From Lactobacillus kullabergensis (GTDB taxonomy: Bacteria; Bacillota; Bacilli; Lactobacillales; Lactobacillaceae): a DNA stretch of 64,000 bases. The stretch spans positions 758,817 through 822,816 of the forward strand of contig NZ_KQ033871.1 in the NCBI RefSeq assembly GCF_000967195.1, given 5' to 3'. Numbering within the stretch: the stretch's first letter is position 1; each line of letters starts with the position of its first letter. Made by a program: the position numbers and the translations under genes. The notes under the pieces were generated by a model. The model was not told the DNA's origin. It was given only the letters and a program-made list of their open reading frames with translations, and did no database searches. This document shows, one piece after another, positions 14,313 to 64,000 of the stretch.

Positions 14313-14341
14313 TTGACAATACAAATTTACAATCCTAGAAT
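14313..14341 (+). promoter_or_regulatory. Promoter of giant gene 1
   Basis: TTGACA (14313-14318), a 17-base spacer and TAGAAT (14336-14341). The bases before the -35 box, ATATTATATTGACA, closely match those at genes 2, 4 and 5. The ATG is 47 bases after the -10 box. Confidence 0.85.
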
Positions 14342-14387
14342 AGTATTCGAACATACTAATCATACATACTTTTTAGGAAGGATAAAT

Positions 14388-17300
14388 ATGCTAGGAAAAA
14401 ATAATTATAATGAAAGACTAAGGAAGATGGAGATGCAGGACAAGCAGGACCACTTCTCAATTCGTAAATTGAGTATTGGTGCTGCTTCTGTTTTGCTGGG
14501 TTTTACTTTCTTTGGTTTGAATAGCCAAAGCGTAAAAGCTGATACTATAGATCCATCGCAAAATGTCACAGAGGAGTCGAACAGGGATAACTCTAATACT
14601 GAAACTAAGGAAACAGGTACTAAGGATAAAACCAAGGCAGACGCTGCTGCGTCTAAAAAGAAGAATGAAACGGACTTGTCAACTTTTTCAGGTTTGAGTT
14701 CATTCTTAAAAGACTCAAAGAGTGATGAAGTAAAAGATACCAGTTCTAAGGACAAGACTGATACTACTGCTAAAGATAAAACTGATAAGGATAAACAGGA
14801 AACTTCTGATTCAACTGGCAATAGTGCAACTACTCCTGCAACCGGCTCAGATAAAGGTAATCAAGATACCACTACTGATAAAACTCCAACTGACATAACT
14901 GGTTCAGATGATCAAAATTCTGATAGTAGTAAGTTGCCAACTGACGTGACTGGTGACACTACTAATTCAGGTAAAGATACTGATACTACTCAAGATTCAA
15001 AAGCTAATGAAGCTAAGAAATTGGCTAATGATACAGCTAACGACGATAAAACCGGTGACTATGCAACTGTGGTAAATGGCGTAGCACACGCATATAATTG
15101 GAATCAGTTTCTCAATGCTTTTAAAAATGATGAATGCTTTAAAAATGTAAATCAGCCTGATGAGACTAAACGTATATCTGAGATTGATATTATGCAAGAC
15201 ATTTACGCTGACAATGGATCTAGTAATAGTTCATATAAATATATATACGGCAGAAAGCTCTTGGTAAAATCATATGGAAATGAACGTAGAAAAATAGATT
15301 TCAATGGATATGATCCGTGTGTAAGAGCTTCTAGTAGTGAAGCATTGGATTTGACTTATGAAAATTTGAATTTGTATAGTGGTGATGATTATGGTGTTAT
15401 CAGAACTGACAACTATAGAAAAGGTTGTGATGTAACATTTAAGAATGTTGAATATCACGGAACACAATTGGTTCATAGTACATCTGGTGCAAGAATCCAC
15501 ATAAAAGGCAATGTTTTTGCGGAAACAATCTACGTTCCATATGTAAGACATGATGGAACAAACAGCGCTTATGCAGACAATAAACAACAGCTTTTTGAGT
15601 TCACCGAATCTAATAACAGTATTGATTTTGAAAGTAATTGTACTTTCACAGGAACTACATTTGGTGGAAACGTCATTGAAATGCGCGGCGATAACTGCAA
15701 TGTCACGGTCGAAAAAGGTGCAAAAGTAACCTTAAATCCAAGACTTAATTCTGACGGGAAAACGTTAGGAAATAATCCAGCAGAAAATACTGGTGTAGTT
15801 CACGCAATCTATATCTCAGGTACTGGAAAAGTTGATGTTAAAGGTGAATTAAATATTAATGTCGGAATTAATTCTGGAGATAACGCATATCAGGGCACAC
15901 TTGATGCAAATAGAGCTACAGCCATCAGATTAAATGACAAGGCATCTCAGTTTACTGTTGAAAGTGGTGGCTCGGTTAAAGTTACAACAAACGGTGATAT
16001 TTCAGACTCTAACACTGGCAACCTGATTTATGACGGTGGTAATTTTACTGTCAAGCCTGATGGAAAATTAAGTATTATCGGTAAACATATGGGTGATTAT
16101 AAGGGTACTTTGGTTCAAATTGCTGGAATAGCTAATGTCCAAAATGGTACATTCGAAATCAGACTTGAAGAAGACCCGAACCATCCTTATGATAAAAGCG
16201 ATCCAACCAGTGCTCAAAATAAGGATGCTCAAATCTTTGGTGCAGGAACTAACCCAATTGTGTTAGTAGACGTTACTGGTAGTGATAGTAAATTGATTGT
16301 GAACAACCCACAATCACTTGTACTTGATTCACATTTAAACACAGCAACAGGCACTAGTATTATTGGTGATGGTAATGATGTCACGATTACCAATGTCCGC
16401 CAGAAATTAAACTTTTTAGGTAATAGTTTAACCTTGCCACCATTCCATACTTTACAAGTTAGCAAAGATAAAAAGACTAAAAATATTATAGTTGATAAAC
16501 TTGTACTACTTAATGGACAAGGTGATGAAAATAACAAATATATGTTCACACCTGAGTTGTGGGAGAAAGTTAGTCAATTATCTTACTTTAAAATTCCAGC
16601 ATTAAAGAACATTAAGATTTTATTAGATAACTTGGCTGACGAGAATAAACCAATAAACTATGATACAATTTTTTCAAAAATTATTAATGAAGCTTTCTCC
16701 AATCCAACTAACATTGGGTATAATGACATTGCCTTTGGTCCGGCCAATACTTCTGGATTTTTAGATATCAAGCCTGAAAATGTCACTGCTACACCAAATG
16801 TTGATGCTTCAGGTAAAAAAGATGGTTCTTGGACAATTTCTGGAATTGTAGATGGTTATAAGAATGAATATGATGGACCTGATTCAGACCCCAAAAACCC
16901 ATTTAGAGAGTTTTTGAAGTTGCCTCTTGGCACTAAAGCATATATCATGGCAGAGATAGATTATGGAAAAGGTACTAAACCTTTAAGCTTAAATAATAAT
17001 ATCGAAGATCCTCCATATCAATATACAAATAATGATGATAAAAAATTGCCAACTGCGTTTGCTGGTGAAGTTACCAAATCTGAAAATGGTAATTATATAT
17101 TTAAGGTTAATGTACCTGCTGATGTTGTGGGTAAGATTAAATCCGATACTAAAATTAAACTAACACCTACTGCTAACTTTATTGACTACAACCCATTGGA
17201 AGAAAATCGACCTGTATCTGTAAACATCTTAAAAATAGCCCAGGATACTGCAGCTAATAATATTAATTCAAAAGTAAACGCAGCTAATGATTTAGATGGT

Positions 17301-20300
17301 CAATTCCCTAAGTCAGATCCTAAATCGAAAGAACAAGTTGCTCTTGAAACTGCAATTAATAATGCAGCAGAAGTTGCAAAAACTGCACTGGATCCTGGTT
17401 ACGAGTCTGGGAAATCTGTATATGGTGCGGGAAATGTAAATGAAGTATCTCAGCGTGAAGAAAATGCATTAAAAGATTTACAAACAGCTATGGATGCAGC
17501 CCAGAAAGTGGTTAAACAAATTCATGACGCTAAAGAGGCTAAAGACAAGGCACAAAAAGCTATCACTACTGCAGCTAATAACGCGATTTCGCGTGTAGAG
17601 CAGCAATCAGCCTTAACTGATGCGGAAAAAGCACAATACATTGACGCCATTAATAGCGCTGAAAAGGTCGCTCTGGAAAACCCTTCGACTAACAAGAATT
17701 CAATTTACAATCCTGCGAATAAGCCAAGCGATATTACAAACATCCAAAATGCATTTGAAAACAAAGTTAATAAAGAAGCAGCAAAAGCCGAAGTTGCTGG
17801 TTATACTGAAAACGGCAAGAAAACTTTAGGTGTTTCTTCAGATAAAATTGATAATGCATTGTCTGAACAACTTAAGGCTATTGACAATGCTACTGACATA
17901 GCTACGGCTGAAAATGATGCCAAATTAAACATTTTAGGCAAACTAAAGGATGCCGCTAAAGCTAAAGTTAAAAATGATGCTGAAGCTGCCAAAGAAGGTC
18001 TTGGAGTTAAATCCGACACCAAGATTGATCAGGCCGTTAGTGAAGCTGCAAAAGCTATTGATGATCACACTGATTTTAATGAAATCAAGAAAGATATGAC
18101 TAATGGTCAGAACAACGTCTTAAGCAAATATAAGGACGCTGCTAAGAATCAGCTTGCTGAAGTTGCTAAGTCCGATAAAAAGGCACTTGGTGTAGAATCT
18201 GACTCTAATATTGACCAAGCTGTTGATAACGCCAATACTTTAATTGGTCAGGCTAGCTCGGTTGAATTAGTTACTGAAGATTTAAACAGTGCTAAGTCCA
18301 ATATTGCGGACAAGTTCAAGGACTCTGCTAAGAAGCAAGTTCAAGATTATGCCGATGAAGCTAAGAGCAACCTCGGTGTTGACACAGATACTGGTATTGA
18401 TGCTGCTGCTAAGACGGCTGAAGATGCTATAGATGGTGATACCGCAGCAAGTGCCATTGGTACTGATATTACTAACGGTAAGAATGCTATTTTAGCTGCC
18501 TACAAAGACTCTGCAAAGAAGCAACTTGATCAAGCTGAAAAGGATATAGAAAGCAAACTTGAAAACGTCAAGGGCTTGACTGCTGATGATATTGAAAAAG
18601 CTAAGAAAGTAGCTAAAGGTCTGCTAACTAATAACGAGAAGACTGGTTACAAGGACAAAGTTGATGCTGCTGAAACTTTTGAAGATGTTAATACTGCCAC
18701 TAAGGATGGTATTGCTGCTCTAAACAAATTATTGACGGACAAGTCCTCTCTTGGTAACAAGAACGATGCAATCGATGCTATTAATCAAGCAAGAGACAAA
18801 GCTATTAATGATATTAATGATAAAACTAAATATCCTAACTTATCTGATGAAGATAGAAATTCATTAATTAACACTATTAAAGATGATGCTACTGAAGGTG
18901 TTGACAATGTCAACAAAGATACTGATCCTGCTAAGATCACAGCTGATAAACAGGCGGCAATAGACAAAATTAATAGTGTCACGGCCACAGCTTCAAGCAA
19001 AGATTTGGCAGATCTTAAGAATGAGCAAAAATCACAAACAGCAGCTTTACAAGATGCAGCTGCAAAAGCTAAGGAAACTATTGACCAGATTGATAACAAG
19101 TATCTTAGCCCAAGTGACAAGCAGTACTACAAAGATTTGATTGATAAGCATGCTGCTTCCGCAACTAACGCCATCAACTCAGCAAGTAACAAAGATGATA
19201 TTGATACTGCTGAAAAAGACGGTGAAAGTAACATAAATAGTGATCTTGTTTCAGCCCAAGTTGCTGCTGCTAAATCACAAGCAATTGCGGAACTGAATAA
19301 GGCAAAGAGTGATGACAAGAAAGCTATTAATGATGTTCATAAGAACGGTACACTTTCTGACGATGACTGGGAGAAAGCTCTTGATGCTATTGACAATGCC
19401 TATACCACTGCGATAACTGCTGTATCTAATGACCATACTCCAGCCGATATTGTTACTGACAAGAACACTGGTATCAATGCTATGCAGACAGTTGTTGACA
19501 GCGTTTCTGGAAATGCAGAACAGGCTGAATTAGCAAAAACTAAGAATAAAGCGATTGCAGATCTGAAAGATCAAGCTCAAGAACTGCATGACCATATTCA
19601 AGCAGACCCTAATTTATCTAACACTGAAAAGAACGATTACCTTGACCAGGTTGCTTCTGCTTTGAATAATGCAGAACAAGCTGTTAGCGCAGCTGATAAG
19701 AACACTGTTAATTCAGCACACAATGCAGGTATTGAAGAATTAAATAACATTAGAAATAACGCTGACTTGCAATCTGCTAGAGACAAGGCTCTAACTGATT
19801 TACAAAACGAATTCAATACTGATAATGCAGCTATTGACGGCTTAACCAATATTAGCACTGCTGGTAAAACTGGTATTAAGACGGACCTGCAAAATGCGTA
19901 TAATGAAGCCGTCAACAAGGTTAAAGATCCAGCTTCTAATACTATTGCTTTGATTAATTCGGCAAGTGATGCTGGCATTACCAATATGGAGAATATTCTG
20001 GGTAAGGCCAAGGGCTTAGACCAGACAATAGCTGATGATCAGCAAAAGCTGGAAGACTATGCTCAAAAAGCAATTGACCGGATTAACAGTTCAACTATGT
20101 CAGACGCTGATAAAGGAAAAGCCATTAAGGATATTCAAAATGCCCGTGATGATGCTCAAGGAGAAGTTGGCAACAAACTTACCGTTGAAGATGCTAATCA
20201 GGCCGAAAAAGATGGTGAAACCAGCATCCAAAAAGCTGAAGCTAATGCTAATCAGACAGATTTGAACAAGGCCAAGGATGCAGCCAAAGCTAGAATTGAT

Positions 20301-23300
20301 GGTGCTAGAGACAAAGCTTTACAGAACTTAAAGGATGTATATGATACTCTAACTGACGATGAAAAGAAGCAAGCTCAGGCTGCATACAATAAGGCTGTCA
20401 AAGATATTCCAGCACTTGCTGAACAAGCTGAGGCCGCAATTGATAATGCCTTTGACAAAGGTGCTATTAGTGACTTAACTAACGATACCATCAATTCAAT
20501 TAACTCAACTGGTGACACAGCCAACGTAGCAATGACTAAGGTTGTCGCTGTTCAAGCTGTTAAGGATGCTGCACAAGCCGCTAAGGATAAATTGACTAAC
20601 CCAAGAGACAAAGCCGGCGTTGATGATGTTGCTAACTTAGGAATTGCTGATATTAATGCGGCAACTACCAGTTCGACAGTACTTGACATCAAAGATAATG
20701 CCCTTAACAGTATTAAGAACATTAAAGATTCTGGTACTGGTGATACAGATAAAGATAATGCTCTCTGGGATAAGAAGAATAAGGCTAATGCTGAACTTGC
20801 TCAAGAATTAGCCGATACTACCGCTGCTATTGACAAGCTGACTGATCTAACTTCTGATCAAAAGAAGCAATTTAAAGCTCAGGCTCAGGCTGCTCACGAT
20901 AGAGCACATATCAGAATTGAAGGTGCTGCTGAAACAGACATTCAGTCAGAAAAGGGCATTGGCATTGATAATATTGATAAAGCACTAACAGATGCTAAAC
21001 TGCAAGCTGTTAAGAATGTTGCTAAAGCAGATGTTGACAAGACCGCTGATGATGCCATTGATAAAGTTAATAAGGACGATACTATTAATAAAGATGATAA
21101 ACAAAATATCATCGATAATATCAACAAAGACCGCGACAAGACTAAAGAAGACATTGATAATGCCGACACACCTGATAAAGTTAATAATGCTAAAAACGAT
21201 GGTGAAGGAGAAATCAAGGGTCACGTTGATAATGGTACCTCATCAGCTAAAGAGAAACAGACTGCTAAAGATAAGCTTGCTGCTGCCGCTGATAAAATTT
21301 ATGACCGTCTGAAGAATGACAGGAATAGTGGAAAGCTAGATTATAATCAATATCAAGACCTGAAAGACAAGGTAGATAATGCTGTTGATGCAGCAAACGG
21401 AGCTATTTCAAATGCTGATGGTACATCAAACATTAATGGTGCTGAAAGTGATGGTGAAAGTGCCTTAAGCGGAATTAATACCGATATAGATAAAGTCGAA
21501 GCAGTTAATACCGCTTTAGGCAAATTATCTGATGCGGTTAACAAAGCTAATGATGCAGCTGATGCGGTTGCTAAAGAAGTAGGCAAGACTGAGAAAGAGC
21601 AGCAAAAACTTGCCAAACAAATGAAGGATGCTATCGAAAAACAGCGTGCTGCTGCAGCTAAGAACATTAAAGATGCTCAAAATGCGGCAGATGATCCATT
21701 AAATGCCATTAAGACTGCTGGCCAAAAAGGTGTTGATTCCATTACAGGTCTGACTAATGATTACACCGATAAGGTTGACCAGATTAAGACTCTGAAACAA
21801 AAAGCCGATGCAGCTAAGGACGATCTTAACAATCTTAAGACAGATGAAAATGGCAACCCTGTACTTACTGCAAGCGATGTTGCACAAGGTGAAGCTGATA
21901 TTGACGACGCTGTGCAAACTGGAATCAGCGATATTTACCAAGCATCTTCTGTAGATGATGCAAAAACAGCGGAACAAAAAGCTGAAGACGCGGTTGGGTT
22001 AGCTAAATTACCAACTGAACTTCTTGCAGAAAAGAACAAACAGATTGCTGCTATCAACCAGTATGCTGCTGATGCTGACAAGACAATTGATGGTTTTGCT
22101 CAATCCGATCAGAATAAGGATGGTCTACCAGCTGATACTATCGCAGAACTTAAGGCGCAAGTTGAAGCTGCTAAGAAAAAGGCTATTTCTAAGATCAATG
22201 CTGTTACTTTAGCAAAAGGCGCAAGCCAAGGTGACTTTGACAAAGCTAAGGACAAGGTTGATAAGGCAGAAAAAGGTCATGCTGAAAGTAACGAAACAGT
22301 TGACTTTGGTGAAGCTGGAATTGACAAAGTTAAGACGCTTGCCAAGCAAAAAGCCGATGTTGTTAAGGCTAAGAATGACAAAATTGCTGAACTTGAGCAG
22401 AAACAAAAAGATGCCAATAACGATATCGAAAACTCTGGCATGTCTCCTGCTGATCAAGGACCTTTGAAGGATCAAGTACAAAAGCTCGTTGATAAAGCTA
22501 AGGATCAGATAATTAATATCTCTGACACAGATGATAAGGGTAATGTTAAGACTCCTGAGCAGGTAAAAGATGAAGCTGATACAATTATTAACAATACTGT
22601 TGATGGTTTCAAAGATCCGGATGACAATAATAAAGTACCTGGAATTAGCGATATTATTAACAATGCTCAACTTGAAGGTGCTAAGACAACAGCTGAAAAA
22701 ACTCTTAATAATAAGCGTGCTCAAGCGCATGACATTATTAACGGGTCACAATTAACTGCAGATCAAAAGCAAAAAGCTAATAAAGCTATCGACGATGCCT
22801 TTAATACCGAAAAGTCTGATATTGATGCTAAGACAAACATAAATGATGTTCCAAAAGATGAAGATCAGATTGGTCAAGCAATCGATGCTATCTGGAACAA
22901 ACCTACTTCTTCTGATGAAAAGAATGAATGGTTCAATGACGAAGAAAATAATGCTTTGTCAGGTACAGATGGTGTAGCTGGTTTAGAAACTGAAGCTGGT
23001 CTTGATAAATTAACCGACAAGCAGAAGGCTGATTACAAAGACTACATCGACGATATTACTAATGCTATTACAGCAATTAAAGATGCTAAGAACATTAAGG
23101 ACGCAAGTTCAGCTTACGACAAGGGTATGACTTCACTTAACAAGTTGAAGGCTCTTGAACAAGTTAAGGCAGATGCTGATAAGGCTAAAGGTGATATTGA
23201 TAAGAGTGATTTAAATGATACAGCTAAAGATCGTCTAAAAGGTGACGTTGAGAAAGTTGTTGAAGACACCAAGGACAAGCTTAACCAGATCGATTCTTCT

Positions 23301-53100: not shown

Positions 53101-56100
53101 AAAGCTGAACTATCATTTGCAAAATTGGGAGCTAAAGTTGCAGTTAAAGCAGCAGCAGATGCTGTCACTAACGGTCTTGATAATGAAAATAAGCAAAAGG
53201 TACAAGAGATAGTAACTACAGCAAATTCTAACATTGACAATGCTACTACTATAACTGACGTGGTTAGATTTAGGGACCAGGCTATCAATGATATTAATGG
53301 TGTCAAAGCTGTGGCAGATGCTGTTAAAGAAGCACAGCTAAATGAAAACAAGAAAAACAACACCGCTAATGTTAATGAAGCTGCTGACGCTGCTAGAAAA
53401 CGTGTCGATGATGCTTATAACAAATTAAATGATTCTCAAAAGAATGCCAATCATCAGACTTACCAAAACGCCCATGATGCGATTGACAATGCTGCAACTA
53501 GTGCGAATAACCAAATTGCACTGGCACAGTCAAGTGATCAAATATCAGAGACAGTTAACACTGCTAAAGCTCAGTTTGATAATGCAGCCACAAAAGCTGA
53601 AATAGATTTTGCTAAGGTAACAGCTGTTGCAGATATTTCGAATGAAGCTAATAAGGTTAAACAAGACCTAAAGGCTGATTCTGATAAGAATCGGGTTGAC
53701 AATATTGCTACTACTGCTACTACTAGTATTAATAGCACTAATACTGATACTGTAACTAAAGTAACCAGTATTAGGGATCAGGCCATTAAAGATATCGACG
53801 CTGTTAGAGCTGAAGCTAATGGTGGTGAACAAGCCAGTCTGGAAGAAACTAAGAATAATCGGACTGGTGATGTTAACAAAGCAGCAGCAAACGCTAAAAC
53901 CCGGGTTGATACGGCATACGCTCAGCTGACACCTGCTGAACAAGATGCAACAAAGCAGGCCTATACTGATGCTCTTTCTGCTATTGAGAATACGCGTCTT
54001 AAAGCAAATAACGATATTGCCAGTGCTGAAACTAAGGATGCGGTAAGCGACATAGCAGCAACAGCAGAGCAGGAACTTGATCAAGAAGCAACAAAAGCAG
54101 AGGTAGCCTTTGCCAAAACAGCTGCTAAAGATGCGATTCAGGCTGAAGAAAAGAATGCTATTGCCGATCTGAAAGGTCAAGACGATAAGACTTCTGTGCA
54201 AAATATCGCTAACAATGCTATTACAGAAATTGACCAAAATTCAACAGATACTGTTGCCAAAGTAAACAGCATTAAAGACAGCGCAATTAGTGCTATTAAG
54301 GCTGTTAAAAATACAGCAAATGCAGTAGATAAAGCTATTGTTGACGAAGCTCGCAAAGACAGCTCTGAGAATATTAATGAAGCAGCTGAAACAGCTAAGA
54401 AGAGAGTTGAAGCAGCATATAGTAAGCTGACGGGAACTGAACAAGCAGTTGCCAAACAGGCTCATGATGACGCCCTTAGCGCAATTGCAAGTGCACAAAA
54501 AGCTGCTAATGATGCAATTTCTTCATTAAATTCAAAAGCAGAAATTACTCAGGCAGCAAATGAGGGTATTAATAAGATTGATGCAGCAGCAAACGAAGCA
54601 GAAGTAGCTTTCGCCAAGGTAGCAGCTAAGGATGCAGTTCATGAAAAAGCCAAATCTGTCATAGATCAGTTAAATAAATCTGATGATAAGAAAAAAGTGC
54701 AGGAAATTTCTGATCAAGCAGATAAAGATATCGACGCAACTGGAACAGATACTGTAGATAAGGTAAACAGCATTAGAGATAAAGCAATCAGCGATATAAG
54801 TAATGTAAAAGCAACTGCGGATGACAATGAACAGAAAGAACTGGAGCAAACTAAGGAAAATAATAAGACTAGTGTTGATGATTTAGTTAAAGCTGCTAAA
54901 AAACGTGTTCAAGATGCTTATGACAAACTCGGAAAAGACGAAAAAGTTTTAGCTGCAAGTGATTACAATAAAGCCATGGCTGACATCACTCAAGCCCAAG
55001 CAACAGCAAATGATGCGATTAGTGCGGCTGCAAATGCGGATGCAATTGTTAAGGCGGTAAGTACTGCGTCTACTGCCTTTGATGCGGCAGCTACAACAGC
55101 TGAGGTGGCATTTGCTAGAGTGACAGCTAAGACTGCAATCCAAGCTGAAGCTGATAAAGTCAAAAAAGGTTTGAAACAGGAAGTTGACCAAGCTAAAGTC
55201 GATAATATAGTGTTACGGGCAGAAAATGATCTTGCTGCAGCTGTAAGCGTAGATAATGTAAATACTATTGCGGCTCAAGCTATTAAAGACATCGATGCCG
55301 TTAAAGATACTGCTGAGGAAAATGAGCAGAAGGATTTAGCTAAAGTTAAGGATGATTCTAAGCAGAGTATTGATCAAGCTGCCACAGCCGCAAAGCAAAG
55401 AATTAAGGATGCATATAATACTCTTAGTGCAGATGAACAGGCAGCAACTAAGACAGATTATGACAAGGCAATCCAAACCATTACCGATGCTCAAACTGCA
55501 GCTAAAGCTGCTATAGAAAAAGCAACAGATAAGGATGCCGTAAGTAAAGCTGTCGGAGACGCCGATCAGGCTTTCACCCAAGCAGAAACGGAAGCTAAAT
55601 TAGCATTTGCCAAAGTAGCAGCTAAAGATGCTGTTGATAAAGTGGCAAGTACTGTTAAGGGTAATTTGAGTAAGGATGCTGATAAGAAACAAGTAGATGT
55701 AATTTCAACTCAAGCTGATACTGCTATTGATAAAGCTACCGATATCACAATGGTCAATCAATTAAGAGATAAGGCAATTAGCGACATCAATGCTGTTAAA
55801 GCAACCGCCGAGGCAGTCGACAAAGCTACCTTGGAGCAAGCTAAGGATAATGGTAAGACCAATGTTAATGGTGCTGCTGCTGATGCTAAAAAACGGGTAG
55901 AGAATGCTTATAATAATCTTAATTCTGACCAAAAGAATGATAATTATCAAGCATACCAAAATGCTCTTACTGCAATTGACAATGCCGCCGATGCAGCAAA
56001 TATCAAAATTGGTCAAGCCCAAACTGCTGACGAAATTAAAGGGGCAGTTGATGATGCTAAGACTAAGTTTAATGATATTGCAACCAAAGCTGAAGTAGCC

Positions 56101-59100
56101 TTTGCTAAAGTTATAGCTAAAGCTGCTGTTCAAAAGGAAGCAACAAAGATTAAGAATGATCTGAAGTCTCAAGCTGATAAAAGCAAGGTTGATGGTATTG
56201 TTACCCAAGCTAATATCCAGTTTAACGATAGCAATACGGACACCGTGCAAGAGGTAAACAGCATTAGAGATAAAGCAATTGATGATATTGATGCTGTTAA
56301 AGACGCAGCTAATGGTAATGAGCAAGCAAGCTTAGAAGAAACTAAGAATAATCAAAAGAGTAATGTGAACAGTGCAGCAGATGCAGCTAAGGCTCGAGTA
56401 GAAAAAGCTTATGGGGATCTAGAAAAAGATCAACAACAAAAAACTAAGCAGGCTCATGATGATGCTATTACTGCCATTGACAATACACTTCAAAAAGCAA
56501 TTGCCGATATTCAAAATGCTGAAACTAAAGATGCTGTGGTTGCCATAGCAGCAACAGCAGACCAAAAATTTGATCAGGAAGCAACAAAAGCAGAGGTCGA
56601 CTTCGCAAAAGTAGCAGCTAAAGATGCAGTTCACAAAGAAGCCGCCGATGCCCAAAGTCAGTTAAATAACACTGATGATAAACAAAAAGTTAAAAACATT
56701 TCTGATCAAGCAGATACTGATTTTGATACTGCTGCAACAGATACGGTAGACAAAGTAAACAGCATCAAAGAGAACGCCATTAGCGCCATTAATGCTGTTA
56801 AAAATACAGCATCAGCAGTAGACAAGGCTTTGCTAGATCAAGCTCGCAAAGACAGCACTCAGAATATCACTAATGCCGCAGAAGCAGCTAAGAAGCAAGT
56901 TGATGATGCTTATGAAAAACTAAGTTCAAGTCAAAAGGCAGCAACAAAACTTGACCATGATAATGCAATTACCGCAATTGACAATGCCAAAACTGCAGCC
57001 ATTGATGCAGTCAATGCAGCAACAAGCAAAGATGCTATTACTTCAGCAGCTAATGATGGAGTTAACAAGATTAACGAAGCAGCAACTACTGCAGAGGTAG
57101 CTTTTGCAAAAGCAGCTGCTAAAGATGCGGTTCAGGCTGAAGCTGCAAATGTGATTAAGAATCTGAAAGATGAAAAGGATCAGGAAGCAGTTCAGAAAAT
57201 CGCTGACGATGCAGTGGCAAATATTGACAATGCTTCAATTGATACAGTGCAAAAGGTCAATGACATCAGAGATCAAGCTATCAATGATATTGATAAGGTA
57301 AAGAATACTATTGAAACCGCTGAACAAGCTAAGTTAGAAGAAGCTAAGGATAACAGTCAGGCAAGTGTTGATGAAGCTGCTGCAGCCGCTACAAAACGGG
57401 TTGAAGATGCATATAATAAGCTTAGTTCGCTGCAACAAACCATGACTGAAGGAGATCATGATGTAGCTATTACTGCAATTAAAAATGCACAAAAAGCAGC
57501 AAATGAAGCTATTGCGCAAGCAAAAGATAAGAGTGCAGTGGCTGGAGCTGTTTCAACTGCAAATACAGCCTTTGATCAGGCGGCCACTCAGGCTGAAGTA
57601 GCTTTTGCAAGGGTAGTTGCTAAAGAAGATATTAGGAATGAAGCAGATAAGATCGAAAATGGCTTGAGCCTTGAAAGTGATAGGACTAAAGTTGAAGGCA
57701 TTGTCAACGAAGCTAATACACGGTTAAATACAGCTGATACAGTGCAAAAAGTCAATGATATTAGAGATCAAGCCATCAGTGATATTGATAGTGTCAAGAC
57801 AACTGCAGATCAAACTGCTGCTACTAAGCTTGATAATGACAAGAAAGATGCAATTACTGCTTTAACTAACAAACAAACTGAAGTTAAAAATGGCATCGAT
57901 TCCCTGAAAAATGTCAGTGCTGAAAACAAGACCGCTCTAAAAGATAAAGTAGATCGCTTCTATCAAGATGCAGTTAACAAGATTAAAGATGCAGGTACAA
58001 CTACTTCTGACCAAGTTAACAGTGCTAAACAAGAAGGCATCGATAACATGAGCAAAGTTCTTGAGGATGCAAAAGCTTTAGATACAGCTATTACAAATGA
58101 CCAAAAGAAATTAGATGATCATGCTTCTGCAGCAATTGACAAGATTAATAAGTCTGATTTATCTGACGCTGATAAAGAAAAGGCTATTGAATCAATCAAT
58201 AAAGCTCGTGATGATGCTAAAGAGACTGTTGGTTCGCAGCCAACTGTCGAAAAGGCAGACGCAGCTGAAAAAGCTGGAGAAAGTGCAATTGATACAGCTG
58301 AAAAAACTGCTACAGATACAGATTTAGGAAATACTAAACTAACCGAAAAGACCAAAGTCGAGGCTGCGGCAGACAATGCTAAGAAACAACTTGATGATGA
58401 TTATAATAAGCTGACTCTTGACCAGCAAAAGGAAGTTAAAGATAAGTATGACAAAGCTAAAGCAGATATTGATCAGGCTAAAGCTGATGCTGAAAAAGCA
58501 ATAGATTCAGCTACTTCCAAACAAGATGTCAATAATGCTTCTGATAAAGCTAAGACTGACATTGACAAAGCTAAAAATGACGCTGAATTAGCTTTTGCTC
58601 AAGCTGCAGCTAAAGACGCAGTTAAAGCAGTTGCTGAAGATATCAAGAGTGGCTTAAATAAACAAGAGGATAAGAACAAGGTTGACGATCTTGTTACTCA
58701 AGCTAATAAAGATATTGACGCTGCAACTACAATTGATTCTGTAAATAGCACTCGTGACAAAGCGATTACTGCAATTAAGGGTATTAAGAATTCTGCAGAT
58801 CAATCAGATAAAGATGACTTAGCTGCTATCAAGTCAACTAATAAAACAAATGTTGACCAGGCAGCAACTAAAGCTAAAAACCGTGTTGATGAAGCTTATA
58901 ACAAGCTTGATGACACTCAAAAAGCAACTACTAAAACTGATTATGACAATGCTTTAGCCGCTATTGAGGATGCTAAGAAAGCAGCCGAAGCTAAGATAAA
59001 CAGTGCTACTAATGCAGACGCGGTTGCAGCAGCAGTTGACAATGCTTCTAGACAATTTGATTCTGCGGCGACAACAGCAGAACTAGCCTTCAGTAAAGTG

Positions 59101-61104
59101 GCTGCAAAAGATGAAGTCAATAAAGCAGCTTCTACAGCTAAACCAAGCTTGAGTAAAGATAATCAGGATCGGGTAGATGAGATAGCAAAACAGGCAAGTG
59201 TTGATATTGATTCAGCTGAAACTGTTGCCAATGTTGATAGAATTAAGCAAAACGCTATTGATAAAATTAATGCCTTAAAAGGTAATGATGAAAAAGACTT
59301 AGCCGAAGCTATCTCAGATGCCAAAGCAGAATTGAGTAAAAAGCATGATGATGCGGTAGCAAGACTAAAAGATAAGTTTGGCAAAGATGCAGATACTACT
59401 GAAGTAGATAAAGCATTCAACTCGAATAAGGACATCACTGGAGCATCGGTTGATGAAGTTAAAGAGCACGAATTAGCAGCCGAAAGGGAATTGGCTAAAG
59501 GCGAAGTTCAAGATACTGGCACAAATGCTAAGAAGAAAGTTGATGAATTAAAGCACAAGGATGGTACTGACTATACCCAAGCTGAAAAAGATGCTATCAA
59601 GAACCAAATTGACCAAGACGTTCATCACGCTATTGATAAGAATGGTACTATTGATCAAGCAAGCGATTCAGCTGGTGTGGATAAAGCTCGTAAGGATGCA
59701 ATTGACAAGATAATTGGTGAAACAATTCCTGACAGTCAGGAAGTTAACAACGTCATAAATCAAGATAAAGACGTTCTCAGTCAAAGACTAGCCGCAGCGC
59801 GCACGGCTGCTTCAAAATATTTGAAAGATAAGTTTACTCCTGACACTGATGATAGTACCATTCAGCAAAGTTATGAAGCTGCGCTAGCAAAACTTAAAGC
59901 AAATCCTACAGACTTAACAACTGAACTTGAAGGTGAAAAGCTAATTGCCCAGGGTGCATTAGCAGATGCACAAAAGGCTGCCAATAAGCTCGTTGATGGT
60001 AATTCTGATTATGATTCTGATGCTAAAAAGCAAATCAAAGAGCATATTGTGAAGGATTACAATGAATTTTTGAACAGTATTAATGCATGTTCAACAGTCA
60101 GTGAGGTAATCTCTGCGCAACGTAACCTTGGTATTGATCAATTAAAACGCGATGCCACGGAGTCTAATGTTAATGTAACCAATATTATAGAAAACGGTGG
60201 TAGCGGACAGCAAGTTCAACCGATAGCACCTGCTCAACCTGATAAGACTGATGATAAAGATAAGGAAACTGATAAGAAGAACGAAGACTCTGAAAGAGTA
60301 ATCTTAATGCATAATGCCTACCTGTACAATAGTAAAGGTAAACGTGCAAATGGCATTACTTTGAGAGCCGGATCAATTCTTGATACTTACGGTATTGAAA
60401 CAATTAACGGTGAACAATATTATGTTTTAGTTGACAAAGGTGCCGATAATAAGAAGTACTATGTCTCAGTTGGAAATGTTAAGAAAACAGCTCAAAAGCT
60501 GAAACATAATGCATACATTTACAACCAATACGGCAAGCGGGTTAAGAAGTCAGGTAAACTGAAGTCAGGCAAAGTTATTAATACTTACGGCAGTAGCGTT
60601 AAGATTCGCGGTAAGAAGTACTTCATCATTGCCAAGAATCGTTATGTCAAAGCGGCAAATATTGCAAGCCAAAATGTACCTTTAAAGACAACAACGGCTA
60701 ATCAAACTGCTGCTGTTGAAGCAGGAGACCAATCTCATATCATTGTTAATAAAAAGATAATGCACAATGCATATCTTTATGATCAAAATGGTATTCGTGC
60801 AAATGGCTTAGTAATAAATGCCGGTTCAAACATTGACGTAGTATCGCAAAAAGTTGTCAACAAGAAGTTATATTACGTTCTTGAAGACGGGTTGTATATA
60901 GCTGCAGGAAATATAGATGCTAAGAAACTGAAATTGAAGCATAATGCTTATGTATACAGTAAATATGGTAATCGCCTAGGTAAGAAAGTACTGAAGAAAC
61001 GTAAATCAATTAAGACTTACGGTAATCCAGTAAAGATTAAAGGTAAAAAGTACTACACTATAACAACAAGTAAATTTGTTAAAAAAGCCAATGTTAAAGG
61101 TTAG
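47128..61104 (+). CDS. Giant surface protein 4: 4658 residues with sixteen long helical repeats
   Basis: The largest protein of the window. The FSIRK signal (cleavage probably after VKA) leads to a linker with TFSGLSSFL at 105-113. The beta-helix adhesive region (about 234-658) and beta-rich domain (about 723-893, ANPSGFLDI) match the paralogues. After other helical sequence, sixteen units of about 161-167 residues span about 1264-4060. Each has a (N/S)(V/I)-x-x-AA helix with KRV-x-x-AY, then AEVAFAKVAAKDAV, then KVNSIRDQAIKDID. A KLDDYA-type module lies before unit 1 and again between units 14 and 15. The pre-anchor FG-D-DADT module is doubled. Four SLAP repeats (4391-4658) end the protein, with three extra residues (VKG). 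AAGGAAGGA precedes the ATG. The repeat type resembles DUF1542 and other bacterial surface-stalk repeats; the function as a long adhesive stalk is inference. Confidence 0.9.
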   Translation: MLGKNNFKERLRKMEMQQKQDRFSIRKLTIGAASVLLGFTFLGLGSQTVKADTEPSTQQVDSKTETKSSESDLSKAASENKKADSQSTQNDRQTQKTEKEPKLSTFSGLSSFLKSSDEDSKSVSKTKTTKEQTKKDSKESDQSTAVKQPDTEANDANAVTPGKTDSTGKDTNTDITSGDNTASDGKLPEDSQANVIKPGDDTSNNDEQNNSTDKIAPAKNKNPLVKDAGDGFSYQVYNWKDFQDALNNINITEIILMNDVSANPNNGNNNFDVPGRTLLIRSNGNAKYKLDFTGYSPKQTSRTNADVTYQSLSMRSGDYYGVWNTDNVNGNYHANIMFKDCSFEGSQLIYAGSNTHIFFTGNNDVHTAKWPNHSDQQMFEFTGGKENDSIEFLDGEFVGSTYGGTIIEMKSKTNTVKINRGATVTLNPVQDFDENRSTGEGGKPFSAIYMESGGIVQVGGVLNINIGLNKVRPYKGTRDAGKARAVYLKDSGSTFNILQNGQVNINTNGNITDAASGNLFYDNGNLNISPNGELNILGSNMGDYSGTLVYVTGSADVENGAFNIRLGDDPGTGAIKLLDVQGGTLKINNPTSFILDSHNNKNTATSIIGNNKITITNVRQQLQTNSGSRFTLPPLHVLQLQKSAKGISVNTIEMLDGNKTLTQEQLDEIKNDPAIKDIINDRKFGSFLTAAEAAVKNLESNRLDDIIKNALENALSSSDSDSYNNVTFVPANPSGFLDIDDDNLQVIKNNDGSRTIKGKVKNYTEAEDGPSNDNAFYKYFPKGTKGYVIIRYISSNAKYNQVIQEDKNLKPYANTNDTYRGNIIDRVPELPKVFTSAINPDGTFAVTIPADITLNMNKGDKVEITPNANFVEYSPEVVAVGSRPIVKSIDILTLSEAQDDAATTIRNAIKDAESKKPTNLKESQSQAFEDELAKALAMADSVTESNKDTTVYGADTIAEVNRRRGAALDLVNKALQIANEESAEQDKLASAKEAAKQALENELNGNGTSGMPGVVNQIADLANSGLTQDNVKIYQDQAQKAYDAAKKAIDDCESFDEITKAQAKGVADIDQALTDAKTQQLIDKAASDLKTAKEDALDELAAEKATVEDNIANLKNISTEAKTAFNKEVEAYYQDAVDKVNNPSPASVEQVDIEKNTGIININSVWNKAAALGKEIVFDQKKLDEYAQAAADRINKTDMSDEDKQKAVTDINKARDEAKINVGKQLTAEDADKAEDDGEKAIKAVEDNANAANIEAIKTSNIANVNAAADSAIDRVNKAYNSLTEAGQQEKAAADKAAAILAINQAKAAATETINAATTKDAIINAFNAAKNKFDNAATTAEVAFAKIAAIDAVKKAAETVKPNLSAADQQTVDGIVATANSDFQKATTVDKVNSIKDQAIKDIANVKTTADVVKEAEIKANKDTQTANIDTAATAAKKRITDAYNKLSQANQTSYQESLQKALDDIDQAAKAAKNNIQSAQNVADIITAAEKGTQAIAAIETKTEVTFAQADAKETIANEAAKVKPNLSAADQQTVDGIVTTANGKIDAATDIPTINNIKNQAIKDIDQVKTTADSNSKEKVEKAKELNRTSIDDAAKAAVARVEAAYKNLTPAEQSANKAAFDQAVTAIKNAQTTAEAKIAAATTETEVAAAASEGTTNINKLADAAELNFVKITANDAVQAEAGKVKPNLKETADQNKVDEIVDQAKADIGAAETVDNVNRIKENAIKAIDNVKSNAEQTIQKAQELSKASVDAQADAAKKRVKDAYDKLTADEQKTTAVQTAYNAANNAIDKAKTVAETAIAAAQTNSEITTAVDNANKAFTQAASDAELAFAKVAAMDAVQSEADKVKQGLKQTVDLNKVDSIVTQAQTDLNNADSVTKVDFIRDQAIKDIDNVKATADAAIDNSQTVNKANIDKAAADATQRVQNAYNQLSAPEKEQAKSEYNKALSDINDAKNTADAAIQAAKTVDDATSAATTGISAVNDIANKAELSFAKLGAKVAVKAAADAVTNGLDNENKQKVQEIVTTANSNIDNATTITDVVRFRDQAINDINGVKAVADAVKEAQLNENKKNNTANVNEAADAARKRVDDAYNKLNDSQKNANHQTYQNAHDAIDNAATSANNQIALAQSSDQISETVNTAKAQFDNAATKAEIDFAKVTAVADISNEANKVKQDLKADSDKNRVDNIATTATTSINSTNTDTVTKVTSIRDQAIKDIDAVRAEANGGEQASLEETKNNRTGDVNKAAANAKTRVDTAYAQLTPAEQDATKQAYTDALSAIENTRLKANNDIASAETKDAVSDIAATAEQELDQEATKAEVAFAKTAAKDAIQAEEKNAIADLKGQDDKTSVQNIANNAITEIDQNSTDTVAKVNSIKDSAISAIKAVKNTANAVDKAIVDEARKDSSENINEAAETAKKRVEAAYSKLTGTEQAVAKQAHDDALSAIASAQKAANDAISSLNSKAEITQAANEGINKIDAAANEAEVAFAKVAAKDAVHEKAKSVIDQLNKSDDKKKVQEISDQADKDIDATGTDTVDKVNSIRDKAISDISNVKATADDNEQKELEQTKENNKTSVDDLVKAAKKRVQDAYDKLGKDEKVLAASDYNKAMADITQAQATANDAISAAANADAIVKAVSTASTAFDAAATTAEVAFARVTAKTAIQAEADKVKKGLKQEVDQAKVDNIVLRAENDLAAAVSVDNVNTIAAQAIKDIDAVKDTAEENEQKDLAKVKDDSKQSIDQAATAAKQRIKDAYNTLSADEQAATKTDYDKAIQTITDAQTAAKAAIEKATDKDAVSKAVGDADQAFTQAETEAKLAFAKVAAKDAVDKVASTVKGNLSKDADKKQVDVISTQADTAIDKATDITMVNQLRDKAISDINAVKATAEAVDKATLEQAKDNGKTNVNGAAADAKKRVENAYNNLNSDQKNDNYQAYQNALTAIDNAADAANIKIGQAQTADEIKGAVDDAKTKFNDIATKAEVAFAKVIAKAAVQKEATKIKNDLKSQADKSKVDGIVTQANIQFNDSNTDTVQEVNSIRDKAIDDIDAVKDAANGNEQASLEETKNNQKSNVNSAADAAKARVEKAYGDLEKDQQQKTKQAHDDAITAIDNTLQKAIADIQNAETKDAVVAIAATADQKFDQEATKAEVDFAKVAAKDAVHKEAADAQSQLNNTDDKQKVKNISDQADTDFDTAATDTVDKVNSIKENAISAINAVKNTASAVDKALLDQARKDSTQNITNAAEAAKKQVDDAYEKLSSSQKAATKLDHDNAITAIDNAKTAAIDAVNAATSKDAITSAANDGVNKINEAATTAEVAFAKAAAKDAVQAEAANVIKNLKDEKDQEAVQKIADDAVANIDNASIDTVQKVNDIRDQAINDIDKVKNTIETAEQAKLEEAKDNSQASVDEAAAAATKRVEDAYNKLSSLQQTMTEGDHDVAITAIKNAQKAANEAIAQAKDKSAVAGAVSTANTAFDQAATQAEVAFARVVAKEDIRNEADKIENGLSLESDRTKVEGIVNEANTRLNTADTVQKVNDIRDQAISDIDSVKTTADQTAATKLDNDKKDAITALTNKQTEVKNGIDSLKNVSAENKTALKDKVDRFYQDAVNKIKDAGTTTSDQVNSAKQEGIDNMSKVLEDAKALDTAITNDQKKLDDHASAAIDKINKSDLSDADKEKAIESINKARDDAKETVGSQPTVEKADAAEKAGESAIDTAEKTATDTDLGNTKLTEKTKVEAAADNAKKQLDDDYNKLTLDQQKEVKDKYDKAKADIDQAKADAEKAIDSATSKQDVNNASDKAKTDIDKAKNDAELAFAQAAAKDAVKAVAEDIKSGLNKQEDKNKVDDLVTQANKDIDAATTIDSVNSTRDKAITAIKGIKNSADQSDKDDLAAIKSTNKTNVDQAATKAKNRVDEAYNKLDDTQKATTKTDYDNALAAIEDAKKAAEAKINSATNADAVAAAVDNASRQFDSAATTAELAFSKVAAKDEVNKAASTAKPSLSKDNQDRVDEIAKQASVDIDSAETVANVDRIKQNAIDKINALKGNDEKDLAEAISDAKAELSKKHDDAVARLKDKFGKDADTTEVDKAFNSNKDITGASVDEVKEHELAAERELAKGEVQDTGTNAKKKVDELKHKDGTDYTQAEKDAIKNQIDQDVHHAIDKNGTIDQASDSAGVDKARKDAIDKIIGETIPDSQEVNNVINQDKDVLSQRLAAARTAASKYLKDKFTPDTDDSTIQQSYEAALAKLKANPTDLTTELEGEKLIAQGALADAQKAANKLVDGNSDYDSDAKKQIKEHIVKDYNEFLNSINACSTVSEVISAQRNLGIDQLKRDATESNVNVTNIIENGGSGQQVQPIAPAQPDKTDDKDKETDKKNEDSERVILMHNAYLYNSKGKRANGITLRAGSILDTYGIETINGEQYYVLVDKGADNKKYYVSVGNVKKTAQKLKHNAYIYNQYGKRVKKSGKLKSGKVINTYGSSVKIRGKKYFIIAKNRYVKAANIASQNVPLKTTTANQTAAVEAGDQSHIIVNKKIMHNAYLYDQNGIRANGLVINAGSNIDVVSQKVVNKKLYYVLEDGLYIAAGNIDAKKLKLKHNAYVYSKYGNRLGKKVLKKRKSIKTYGNPVKIKGKKYYTITTSKFVKKANVKG
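52876..55365 (+). repeat. Five-unit super-repeat, copy A (units 5-9)
   Basis: Units 5-9 correspond one-to-one to units 10-14. Anchor-to-anchor distances are 2490 (5 to 10) and 2493 for each of the pairs 6-11, 7-12, 8-13 and 9-14. Shared private words include GEQASLEETKNN or NEQASLEETKNN, LNDSQKN or LNSDQKN, and QARKDS or EARKDS. Confidence 0.8.
55366..57826 (+). repeat. Five-unit super-repeat, copy B (units 10-14)
   Basis: Second copy of the block starting at 52876, directly adjacent to it. It ends where the KLDDHA-type module begins. Confidence 0.8.
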
Positions 61105-61126
61105 TTTAACTAGCTGATAACGAGAG

Positions 61127-61163
61127 AAGAGCCACAATTGTAAAAAATTATGGCTCTTTTTTT
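61127..61163 (+). terminator. Terminator of giant gene 4
   Basis: AAGAGCCA (61127-61134) pairs with TGGCTCTT (61151-61158), with an inner AATT/AATT helix and a run of T. Confidence 0.85.
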
Positions 61164-61481: not shown

Positions 61482-61510
61482 TTGACAGTAAATAACAAAT
61501 GTTATAAAAT
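61482..61510 (+). promoter_or_regulatory. Promoter of gene 5
   Basis: TTGACA (61482-61487), a 17-base spacer and TAAAAT (61505-61510), preceded by ATTATA. Confidence 0.85.
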
Positions 61511-61544
61511 TTAGGTGCGTCTAAATAACAAGGAAGGACTAATA

Positions 61545-64000
61545 ATGCTAAGTAAGAATAACTATAATGAGAAATTAAGAAAAATGAAATTACAAGCAAG
61601 GCAGGATCATTTTTCAATTCGCAAATTAACAATTGGAGTAGCTTCTGTTTTATTGGGATACGCTTTTTTCGGAGCTGGCAGTCAAACAGTTAAAGCTGAT
61701 ACTGAATCGACAGCACAGCAAGCCGATGCTAAAACAGAATCAGTTTCTGATAAACCTCATGTTAATGATAATGTTGTCAAACTTGGTTCTAGTAAAAATA
61801 CTGGGACTGATGGTGACAAGAAAAATGCCGCAAGCACTTCCTCTGTCCAAAAGTCTGCACCTGATAATACTGTTTCAGGTGTTCAAACAGACGTTGCTAA
61901 AAAAGCTGATACTGATCAAGTTGCAAAAAACGGTCTTACTAAAGAACACTTGAAAAAAGATGGATCCGATCAAGGTGATATTGAATCAGTACGAAATAAT
62001 AGAAAATTTGATATAACATCTACAATTCAAACTGTGCAAATTAGAGTAAATAATGCATATAGTTCTTCCTCAAAAGATCAAGACGACTTGAACACTAAAA
62101 ATGATTATTTGGCTCAGATTGATAAAATTGATACTGATGTGATAGCTAAACTCAATGCAGGAAAAAATGTCGAAGAAATAGATTCAACAGCAGAAACTGC
62201 TATTAGGGACATTTTAAATCTTGCAGCGGCTGCAGAACTGCATTTTGCCAAAAAGACAACTATTGATGCTATTACAAGCAAAGCAAACGTTGACGAACAA
62301 GCTAAATTAGCAGCAAGTAAAGCTAATAGTCATGCCAATATAAATTCTGCAGCTAATGCTGCAAAAAATCAGATACTTGAAGCTTATAGCAAACTTAGTA
62401 CGACTAATAGGACTGAAACTGGAAAAAAATGTGTAGCTGCTCTTGATGACATTGAGGCAACTGCAACAGAGGCGAATGATCAAATTGATAAAGCTGATGA
62501 CGCTAATTCCATAACAAATATAGTGAAAACGGCTGTTGATAAGTTTTTTAAAACAGTAGACAAAGCGAAAATTGCTTTTGCCACTGCACTTGCCAAGGAC
62601 CTAGTTGGAGAAGGAGCAGATAAAGTTAGTGATAGCTTATCAAGTCAAGCTGACAAAGACTTGGTTAATGAAATTTTAAGCCAAGCTGATACAGATTTTG
62701 CCACTGCTGACTCCCTTCAAAAAGTATTTGAAATAACGAGTAAAGCTATAAGAGATATTGATGCTGTCAAATCAGATGCATTAAATAAGCTTAATCAATA
62801 TAAATTAGCTGCTAGTAAAAAGTTAGGTGACGTACAGTTCTGTGATAATGAAGATATTGATGGTTTACCAAATATTAGTGCTGAAAATAAGAGTACTCTA
62901 AAAGATAAAGTTAACTTGTATTATCAGACTGCTATCAGTAATATAGAAAATGCTGTCGATTTTGACCAAGTTGATAAAGAAGAAAATGCTGGTCATTTAA
63001 ATATGGGTAGGGTAGTAGTGGATGCTCAAAATCTGAATAAAAAAATTGCGTCAGACCAAAAGCAACTTGATGATCATACACAAAAAGCAACTGAAAATAT
63101 CAATAATTCTAATTTATCAGAAGCTGATAAAGAAAAAGCAATAGAGGCAATCGGTCAGGCTCGTGATGATGCCAAAAATATAGTTGGACAGCAACCTACT
63201 GTTGAGAGGGCAGATGCGGCTGAAAAAGCTGGAGAAGCTACTATTGATGCGATTGAGCAAGCAGCTTATTTAACTGATCTTGAAAGGGCTAAACTTATTG
63301 AGAAAATAAGAGTTGAAAATGCAGCCGAAAATGCCAAGAATAAAGTTGAAGATGAATTTAATCACTTGGACACTAGTGGCCTAGATAAAGAAAAAGACAA
63401 ACTTGAAACTGCATTAGAAACTATTGAAAAAGTTAAAAATGATGCTGAAACAGCAGTTTCAAGTGCTACAGATAAAAATGCTGTAAGCACCATATCTAAA
63501 ACCGGAATTGATAAGATTAATGGTGTAGCAGATGATACTTCACTAGAATTTGCCAAGGAGGCAGCAAAAGAAATTATTCAACAAATAAGTGATATTGTCA
63601 AACAGAATTTAAAGGACCCGAAAGATCGGAATGCTGTTGATGAGATTATTAAGGAAACAACCGTTGACTTGGCTAAAACCATTCACGATGTGACCAAGAT
63701 TCGGGAATATATTATCGACGGAATTAAACAAATTAAAAATACAGCTGACAATAAAGAAAATAATGACTTGTCTAACGCTAAAAGCAGCAGTAAAGATACA
63801 GTCAATGTAGATGCAAGTGCAGCACTTGATCGTGTCAAAAAAGCTTATGAAAAATTAACCGAAGCTGAAAGAACTGCTAAAAAAGATGAGTACGATACTG
63901 CTATTAAAGCTATAAATGATGCCAGGACTGCTGCAGAAGATAAAATTGATAATGCTACAAATGTAGATGCTATTATTGCTGCAGTAAGTAACGCAAAACA
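61545..64000 (+). CDS. Giant surface protein 5, N-terminal part (at least 818 residues), cut by the window
   Basis: The frame is open from the ATG at 61545 (after AAGGAAGGA) to the right edge without a stop. The FSIRK signal peptide (motif 23-38, cleavage probably after A51 in VKADT) is clear. A D/K/S/T-rich linker of about 100 residues follows, but TFSGLSSFL and the whole beta-helix and beta-rich domains are absent. Helical repeats begin at about residue 155: a shortened unit, a full unit of the gene 4 type (anchor at 62565), the KLDDHT module (from about 63060), then another unit (anchor about 63537) and the start of a next one. The order matches units 14, module, 15, 16 of gene 4. A SLAP anchor would be expected beyond the window. 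One cysteine each in KKCVAA and QFCDN is unusual for these repeats. Confidence 0.85.
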   Translation, partial: MLSKNNYNEKLRKMKLQARQDHFSIRKLTIGVASVLLGYAFFGAGSQTVKADTESTAQQADAKTESVSDKPHVNDNVVKLGSSKNTGTDGDKKNAASTSSVQKSAPDNTVSGVQTDVAKKADTDQVAKNGLTKEHLKKDGSDQGDIESVRNNRKFDITSTIQTVQIRVNNAYSSSSKDQDDLNTKNDYLAQIDKIDTDVIAKLNAGKNVEEIDSTAETAIRDILNLAAAAELHFAKKTTIDAITSKANVDEQAKLAASKANSHANINSAANAAKNQILEAYSKLSTTNRTETGKKCVAALDDIEATATEANDQIDKADDANSITNIVKTAVDKFFKTVDKAKIAFATALAKDLVGEGADKVSDSLSSQADKDLVNEILSQADTDFATADSLQKVFEITSKAIRDIDAVKSDALNKLNQYKLAASKKLGDVQFCDNEDIDGLPNISAENKSTLKDKVNLYYQTAISNIENAVDFDQVDKEENAGHLNMGRVVVDAQNLNKKIASDQKQLDDHTQKATENINNSNLSEADKEKAIEAIGQARDDAKNIVGQQPTVERADAAEKAGEATIDAIEQAAYLTDLERAKLIEKIRVENAAENAKNKVEDEFNHLDTSGLDKEKDKLETALETIEKVKNDAETAVSSATDKNAVSTISKTGIDKINGVADDTSLEFAKEAAKEIIQQISDIVKQNLKDPKDRNAVDEIIKETTVDLAKTIHDVTKIREYIIDGIKQIKNTADNKENNDLSNAKSSSKDTVNVDASAALDRVKKAYEKLTEAERTAKKDEYDTAIKAINDARTAAEDKIDNATNVDAIIAAVSNAK

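Follow-up and report, generated by a model that had tools for sequence, protein, structure and literature searches.

Sequence signs of exchange between species in the giant surface-protein genes of Lactobacillus kullabergensis

Do giant surface-protein genes that stand side by side in one species share their recent ancestry with those of another? We analysed 64,000 nucleotides of Lactobacillus kullabergensis (the window, G000:C2:758817-822816, from the 2.1-Mb draft genome G000), in which five giant paralogous genes, g1 to g5, run head to tail from position 14,388, the last ending beyond the window (Table 1). A sixth copy, g6 (3,646 amino acids (aa)), lies about 0.8 Mb from this array, beside a glmU-like gene, at a second locus that we call locus B. 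Judging by a comparison with related genomes, species seem to have exchanged large exposed portions of these proteins. The existence of the locus is no discovery, because such arrays have been in print since 2015; the report in question, whose first author we take to be Ellegaard, concerns Firm-5 bee lactobacilli, to which the species compared here presumably belong. This report (PMC4449606, 2015) describes tandem YSIRK/DUF1542/SLAP genes of 1,500–4,600 aa at two distant loci with variable copy number, and low recombination in core genes, with signal in 8.7% of Firm-5 core genes. Added here are an N-terminal Pectate_lyase_5 tip, the grouping of tips by array position and a layer of exchange across species.

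Two core loci put G000 near G028, G019, G025 and G030 (92–97% identity) and far from G017 (82–83%). Four other 10-kb regions, compared in pieces of at least 600 bases, gave 77–85% for G017 and 91–97% for G025 and G028, with one G028 piece at 79%. To G017, the left flank of the array is 81–93% identical, highest in an ATP-synthase window, and the right flank 78–88%. Inside the array, DNA identity to G017 is 91–100% in 45 of the 46 1-kb windows from 14,001 to 59,001 and 87% in the other; two of these align over short lengths, at 15,001 over 359 bases (part of the g1 tip is unshared) and at 37,001 over 494 bases (a gap in G017). From 60,001 to the end of g5, identity is 78% or lower, and finer scans put the edges at about 14.2–14.4 kb, in the g1 leader, and 59.6–59.9 kb, before the g4 SLAP domains. 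A 97% match to L. helsingborgensis over a stretch of g3, tried as a sign of the nearest relative, was misleading, as the core loci are nearest to G028 (97% and 96%).

Synonymous divergence (dS) between G000 and G017 is 0.36–2.62 in seven genes beside the array, 0.08–0.16 in g1, g2 and g4 once the final 450 codons of each are removed, and 1.28 in the g4 anchor; g3 is absent from this table because the G017 copy holds a run of unknown residues. Between G000 and G025, dS is 0.09–0.37 in the genes beside the array, 0.34–0.73 in these three array genes, likewise shortened, and 0.14 in the g4 anchor. Approximately unbiased (AU) tests, on groups chosen after the distances had been seen, rejected the grouping of G000 with G017 and G066 in the 3′ flank (p = 5e-60) and that of G000 with G025 and G030 in the g2 ectodomain (p = 3e-6).

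Conflicting ancestry is also found at locus B. Identity between the g6 genes of G000 and G017 is 91–100% in 20 of 22 500-bp windows and 78–79% in the last two, and the flanking windows have 70–84%, with a single exception, a 77-base match at 94%. At finer steps, the high identity sets in 150–300 bp upstream of the ATG, dips in places to 87–89% and ends near residue 3250, and the g6 SLAP region is 68–91% identical. Along L010, from about 3 to 10 kb, G017 is closer to G000 than either G028 or G019. To G065, of a third species, g6 of G000 has 91% identity in the tip, 89% in the stalk, 76% in the anchor and 80% in the flank; the corresponding values for the close relative G028 are 87%, 83%, 96% and 96% (g6 of G017, which holds a run of unknown residues, was left out of this comparison). 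By these values, species ancestry appears to be kept by the g6 anchor but not by much of the exposed part.

Several observations weigh against a simple account of exposed parts traded between conserved ends. The inner anchors of g1 (dS 0.13 to G017) and g3 (0.05 to G066) share the exchanged ancestry, with an intermediate value for the anchor of g2 (0.45 to G017); therefore, at the array, only the outermost anchor, that of g4, counts as a kept end. The tree of the g4 SLAP piece alone fails to reject a grouping with G017 (p = 0.32) and a five-row unrooted tree of g4 permits both groupings, so the case for g4 rests on distances. Between G017 and G025, dS is lower in the array genes (0.39–0.72) than in their neighbours (1.2–2.5; rpsD 0.36), which may reflect an older exchange or codon constraint. 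At locus B, G028 and G019 are about as near to G000 as G017 is at 10–12.4 kb, the last 2.4 kb before the anchor, so that any edges or direction read there are tentative. Exchange also seems not to be confined to the giant genes: a control region (L066 4314-9996, C2 at about 1.904–1.910 Mb) is 90% identical to G065 over 5.7 kb, other long G065 pieces having 80–82%, and may represent a separate interspecies exchange. Finally, g5 lacks a tip, G066 is a 54%-complete metagenome-assembled genome, and the comparison included one assembly of the species of G000.

What kind of protein would have been exchanged? In Pfam scans, every one of g1–g5 has its YSIRK signal and its four SlpA matches; DUF1542 matches one or more times in each, ten times in g1 and once in g5. 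The scans of g6 covered SLAP and tip. Every copy opens with M-L-(G/S)-K-N-N. An earlier note, made from the letters of the window alone, had read five tandem giant paralogues here, and this is confirmed, with its lengths for g1–g4 exact when counted from the conserved MLGKNN start; g5, of which 818 codons lie in the window, runs to 1,508 aa in the genome. The FSIRK signal that it reported is found as FSIRK or YSIRK in all five genes, and the four C-terminal SLAP repeats that it assigned to the complete genes are present in g5 too. The first of its genes, our g1, also stands, but the start at 14,313 does not: this TTG falls within the −35 box of the g1 promoter, and the conserved start is the ATG at 14,388. 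The SLAP end of g4 matches solved surface-layer (S-layer) domains (PDB 7qeh, E = 1.5e-19; also 7qfg, 8alu and 8aol), which supports the idea of a dedicated surface-protein locus with SLAP anchors. Paralogue identity is 32–51% in best local alignments of more than 1,400 residues, and the homology of g5 to g4 lies in the C-terminal third of g4 (48% over 1,443 residues). Staphylococcal Ebh and SasC resemble these giants in combining a YSIRK signal with DUF1542 repeats, and differ in their anchor.

At the other end of the protein, Pectate_lyase_5 (PF20585) has five matches in G000, in g1–g4 and g6 but not g5, and none in 14 control genomes. All 12 tips of alignment A2 match it (best E 2.6e-18); from that alignment, L017 (the third gene of G017) and L023 were dropped for stops in the chosen frame and L024 was removed with L023, and L013, L016, L018 and L025 were unused. 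An hmmscan of whole g1 and g4 gave no Pectate_lyase_5, the match being seen once the tip was scanned alone. On the basis of the Pfam match, we infer that the tip is a beta-helix. The stalk is rich in A, K, D and N and almost devoid of W and C, has an 11-residue period in all six genes and a strong 167-residue period in g4, and, from its DUF1542 matches and composition, is assumed to be extended; the g4 stalk, searched as a profile against solved structures, had no hit. The adhesive role proposed in the earlier note is somewhat better grounded because the tips of g1–g4 and g6 match this family, although it is still one that we infer.

The tips appear to be specialised by position. In a FastTree phylogeny of N termini, those of G000, G017, G025, G030 and G066 group by array position and not by genome, with a less neat fit for the tips of G032, G007, G063 and g1 of G028. 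The g3 tip, apparently close to fixed, is 92–96% identical across six compared orthologues, one of them the only copy in G006. The g1 tip, by contrast a patchwork, is 42–81% identical, yet the g1 linker and stalk are 90–96% identical in the two closest genomes. In block 151–450 of g1, G000 pairs with G066 (95%) and G017 with G025 (84%); in block 451–1000, G000 pairs with G017 (91%) and G066 is only 46% identical to G000; in the stalk, G000, G017 and G066 are together again (92–97%). The dS of g1 between G000 and G066 is 1.4–1.6 in residues 451–1050, 0.57 in the next window and 0.01–0.24 in all others. These patterns indicate that the g1 tip changes by block replacement and not by point changes alone. 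In G063, an incomplete bin, a 2,227-aa gene with a g4-like end stands before g5 (L041 192-6875) and, in the tree of N termini, groups with the g5 genes, which lack a tip.

Lengths, too, track array position: g4 has 4,657–4,661 aa in all five genomes, with 0–1 gaps in about 3,407 stalk residues. This would suit a shield around the cell, in the form of a structural brush or an S-layer-associated coat, made of proteins that are no adhesins: the tip would be a cap and length the decisive property. Such a coat would also fit g5, which has a stalk and anchor and no tip match, and the SLAP domains, which are those of S-layer proteins. We nevertheless consider it unlikely. Length is not absolute (g1 of G028 has 3,834 aa and g5 of G030 has 1,413 aa), and the tips are distinct by position, strongly conserved in g3 and block-replaced in g1, neither of which a passive cap needs.

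Apparent exchange could also arise from the chimeric assembly of a mixed culture, joined in the conserved leader and anchor sequences; we regard this as improbable. The edges do lie near sequences common to paralogues and species, and G000 is a draft of 6 contigs. However, both loci are on a single 2.0-Mb contig, the estimated contamination of the genome is 0.82%, and G000 differs by several per cent from both G017 and G066 in many windows. Moreover, ancestry also conflicts between G000 and G065 at locus B and in the g1 tip blocks among other genomes.

That the tips are enzymes cutting pollen pectin, as the family name and a host that presumably eats pollen might suggest, seems very doubtful, because the Pfam entry for the family reads ‘putative pectate lyase-like adhesive domain’ and the tip profile, run against solved structures, brought up no enzyme (best E 0.6). 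Strong conservation in place of gene flow would agree with the highly conserved g3 tips and with the lowish array dS even between G017 and G025, but it has almost no standing and, as a plain cause of the likeness between G000 and G017, is rejected on dS, which is 0.08–0.16 inside the array and 1.28 at the g4 anchor, with the close relatives G025 and G030 more distant from G000 inside the array (0.34–0.73) than G017 is, so that codon constraint would have to act on this one pair alone.

We therefore return to exchange, and think it probable that the array and g6 encode SLAP-anchored, stalked, beta-helix-tipped giant adhesins of the cell wall whose exposed parts move between species. Each protein would be exported by its YSIRK signal and held non-covalently to the wall by its four C-terminal SLAP domains, and a DUF1542-type stalk, of a length characteristic of its array position, would lift the N-terminal pectate lyase-like tip off the cell in g1–g4 and g6. 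The tips would bind something, be it bee cuticle, pollen or neighbouring cells; g3 would keep one tip and g1 swap its tip in blocks, each gene being transcribed as its own unit. Conserved leader and anchor ends would allow homologous recombination to replace the intervening part while export and anchoring are retained. In G000, recent ancestry with another species would be shared by most of g6 and by everything from the g1 leader through to the g4 stalk, the anchors of g1–g3 included. Domain order, promoter and hairpin motifs, copy number and the conflicting ancestry with its approximate edges can be read from the DNA itself; a direction of exchange, and selection on surface specificity as its driver, would be deductions from these.

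Copy number varies among genomes. The locus holds five copies in G000, G025 and G030, four in G017 and G066, three in G032 and one in G006, these being the seven genomes in which both edges were read (G030 is on two contigs and its g3 was counted once; G019, G028, G063 and G007, which are too broken, and the array of G065 were left out). Because copy number differs in this way, the earlier suggestion that copies are lost independently is supported, or else their independent gain, and the comparison across genomes shows copies varying from one to five with lengths mostly fixed by position. The companion suggestion of independent switching finds no support: no long tandem DNA array was found (best Tandem Repeats Finder score 68), in a search that did not extend to invertible elements. 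Slippage of the DNA was set aside as an origin of length changes, given the missing long tandem repeats and the lengths largely kept by position, as was recent homogenisation between array genes, the longest identical DNA common to two of the five being 56 bp. The spacer between g3 and g4 (46193-47127) has 935 bp with two similar hairpins (46231-46267 and 46706-46736), compared with 437 bp in G025, and may mark where a copy was lost.

A search with the N-terminal alignment matched 69 of 75 genomes of the genus, many of the matches listed spanning the leader part only. With the tip alone, and at most two candidates scored per genome, 55 of 397 sampled genomes of the family matched (19 of 40 genera), mostly in the first 400 of 753 positions. 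Near-full-length single tip matches were confined to the genus; G330, of another genus, matched most of the tip in three pieces.

Each gene is predicted to form its own transcription unit, as had been claimed before, with promoters that are well predicted and terminators that are less firm. A TTGACA-17-TAnAAT promoter stands at a near-fixed distance before all five genes, and, of 45 family gene starts, 37 have TTGACA-N17-TANNWT at 63–76 bp upstream of the ATG, where Markov resampling predicts 0.0014 occurrences per upstream region; the starts come from the compared genomes and many are orthologues of one another, hence not independent. The motif is missing at eight: in G006, both genes of G007, g5 of G025, G030 and G063, and two of the three G032 genes. 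Terminator-like hairpins with T-rich tails (−14 to −23 kcal/mol) follow the four complete genes of the earlier note, and g5 and g6 too (the lowest-energy pick, taken without a shuffled control). A generic consensus scan of 46.1–64 kb is as a whole hardly above chance, with 59 promoter-like matches against 54.0 (s.d. 7.0) and 20 terminator-like matches against 13.9 (s.d. 3.6); the promoters of g4 and g5 are ranked with its best (11 of 12), and the g4 hairpin is not among its matches in that interval.

Table 1. Features of the giant-gene array, in window coordinates
Feature	Position	Strand	Remarks
g1 promoter	14313..14341	+	TTGACA-17-TAGAAT; the TTG at 14,313 is inside the −35 box
Putative exchanged segment relative to G017	14300..59700	+	Edges approximate, 150-bp steps
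g1	14388..24797	+	3469 aa; YSIRK signal, Pectate_lyase_5 tip, DUF1542 stalk, four SlpA
g1 Pectate_lyase_5 match (tip)	15168..15476	+	Sequence varies block-wise between species
g1 SlpA (SLAP) matches	23991..24785	+	Four matches
g1 terminator-like hairpin	24815..24856	+	−23.4 kcal/mol
g2 promoter	25232..25260	+	
g2	25298..35491	+	3397 aa; g1-type architecture; Pectate_lyase_5 25919-26272, SlpA 34682-35479
g2 terminator-like hairpin	35529..35560	+	−18.6 kcal/mol
g3 promoter	35981..36009	+	
g3	36044..46192	+	3382 aa; Pectate_lyase_5 36608-36973, SlpA 45383-46180
g3 terminator-like hairpin	46234..46264	+	−16.2 kcal/mol
g4 promoter	47063..47091	+	
g4	47128..61104	+	4658 aa; longest stalk, 167-aa period; Pectate_lyase_5 47830-48177, SlpA 60289-61086
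g4 terminator-like hairpin	61126..61159	+	−14.2 kcal/mol
g5 promoter	61482..61510	+	
g5	61545..64000	+	1508 aa in all, continues past the window; no tip match, one DUF1542 match, four SlpA

From the reading of translations, the array is preceded by an ftsW/rodA-like gene and then a universal-stress-like gene, and followed by genes read as rarA, rpsD and ezrA-like. Long open reading frames (ORFs) on the minus strand inside the giant genes (window 22209-22730, 23313-23903, 53668-54237 and 55762-56325) are probably a by-product of the biased codons of these genes. G000 has 75 SlpA matches in total, with further clusters at about 60–73 kb, 105–109 kb, and 1.704–1.712, 1.758–1.764 and 1.774–1.783 Mb. 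Upstream of the window (L011 965-2100; C2 at about 750.0–751.1 kb), two consecutive ORFs (965-1393 and 1426-2100), perhaps one broken gene, encode leucine-rich repeats, which we take to be BspA-like, and a SLAP end. Surface proteins of this broad type have been studied in bees by an author whom we take to be Brochet. In that study (PMC8456714, 2021), surface-protein clusters bearing leucine-rich repeats, SLAP domains and LPXT motifs are reported to increase with pollen in bees.

Compared with the Firm-5 family of PMC4449606, the genes here agree in size (five of 1,508–4,658 aa, with g6 elsewhere) and in the YSIRK, DUF1542 and C-terminal SLAP parts of g1–g5, and differ in having four SlpA matches where two SLAP domains were reported; for these genes, the available text of that paper makes no mention of a tip domain, positional orthology or ectodomain exchange. 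The C-terminal SLAP domains are shared with S-layer and S-layer-associated proteins of lactobacilli (SlpA/SlpX), but those S-layer proteins are described as being of 40–200 kDa, whereas the protein that ends in four SlpA matches here is a stalked giant.

The tandem genes Giant1–5 of Apilactobacillus kunkeei, a lactic acid bacterium of bees, offer a second comparison (PMC4494060, 2015; PMC12863079, 2026). These sources describe a predicted N-terminal beta-solenoid, a long helical rod, a C-terminal wall-binding domain and positional homologues, with recombination tracts in the cluster, some over 25 kb, and exchange within A. kunkeei and with Fructobacillus; the giant proteins have been detected in extracellular fractions (PMC10496945, 2023). 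Unlike their SH3b-like C terminus, SlpA stands at the C terminus here, and Pfam scans gave no SH3 family. Beside their predicted beta-solenoid may be set the Pectate_lyase_5 match of the tips here. The first part of the tip profile weakly matches inside ORFs of 8,175–8,738 aa in 1.4-Mb genomes of other genera (G112, G144 and G140); these are perhaps A. kunkeei-type giants, and a common origin of the tips of the two giant families is possible. The text of PMC12863079 contains no occurrence of Firm5, Firm-5, SLAP or Ellegaard, though weaker hits in a few Lactobacillus species are reported in it. We found no report of ectodomain exchange in Firm-5 arrays in the open-access literature, most subscription-journal papers lying outside the search.

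The importance of the locus would lie in the exchange: the largest surface proteins of coexisting bee-gut lactobacilli appear to cross species borders. We tentatively propose, as something close to an even call, that the giant arrays of Firm-5 form a cross-species pool of surface specificities, in which leaders and SLAP anchors would serve as homology arms to trade tips, ectodomains or most of four genes (about 45 kb) between species that differ by about 17% at the two sampled core loci and whose core genes reportedly recombine little. Array position would set the mode, with g3 a fixed common binder and g1 variable. Related lactobacilli coexist in the bee gut, reportedly through different pollen-derived resources (PMC8456714), and whether species that share a tip occupy the same place in the gut becomes a testable question. 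The arrays may thus offer a system for modular adhesin evolution, in which the leader and outer anchor are kept and the stretch between them is traded.

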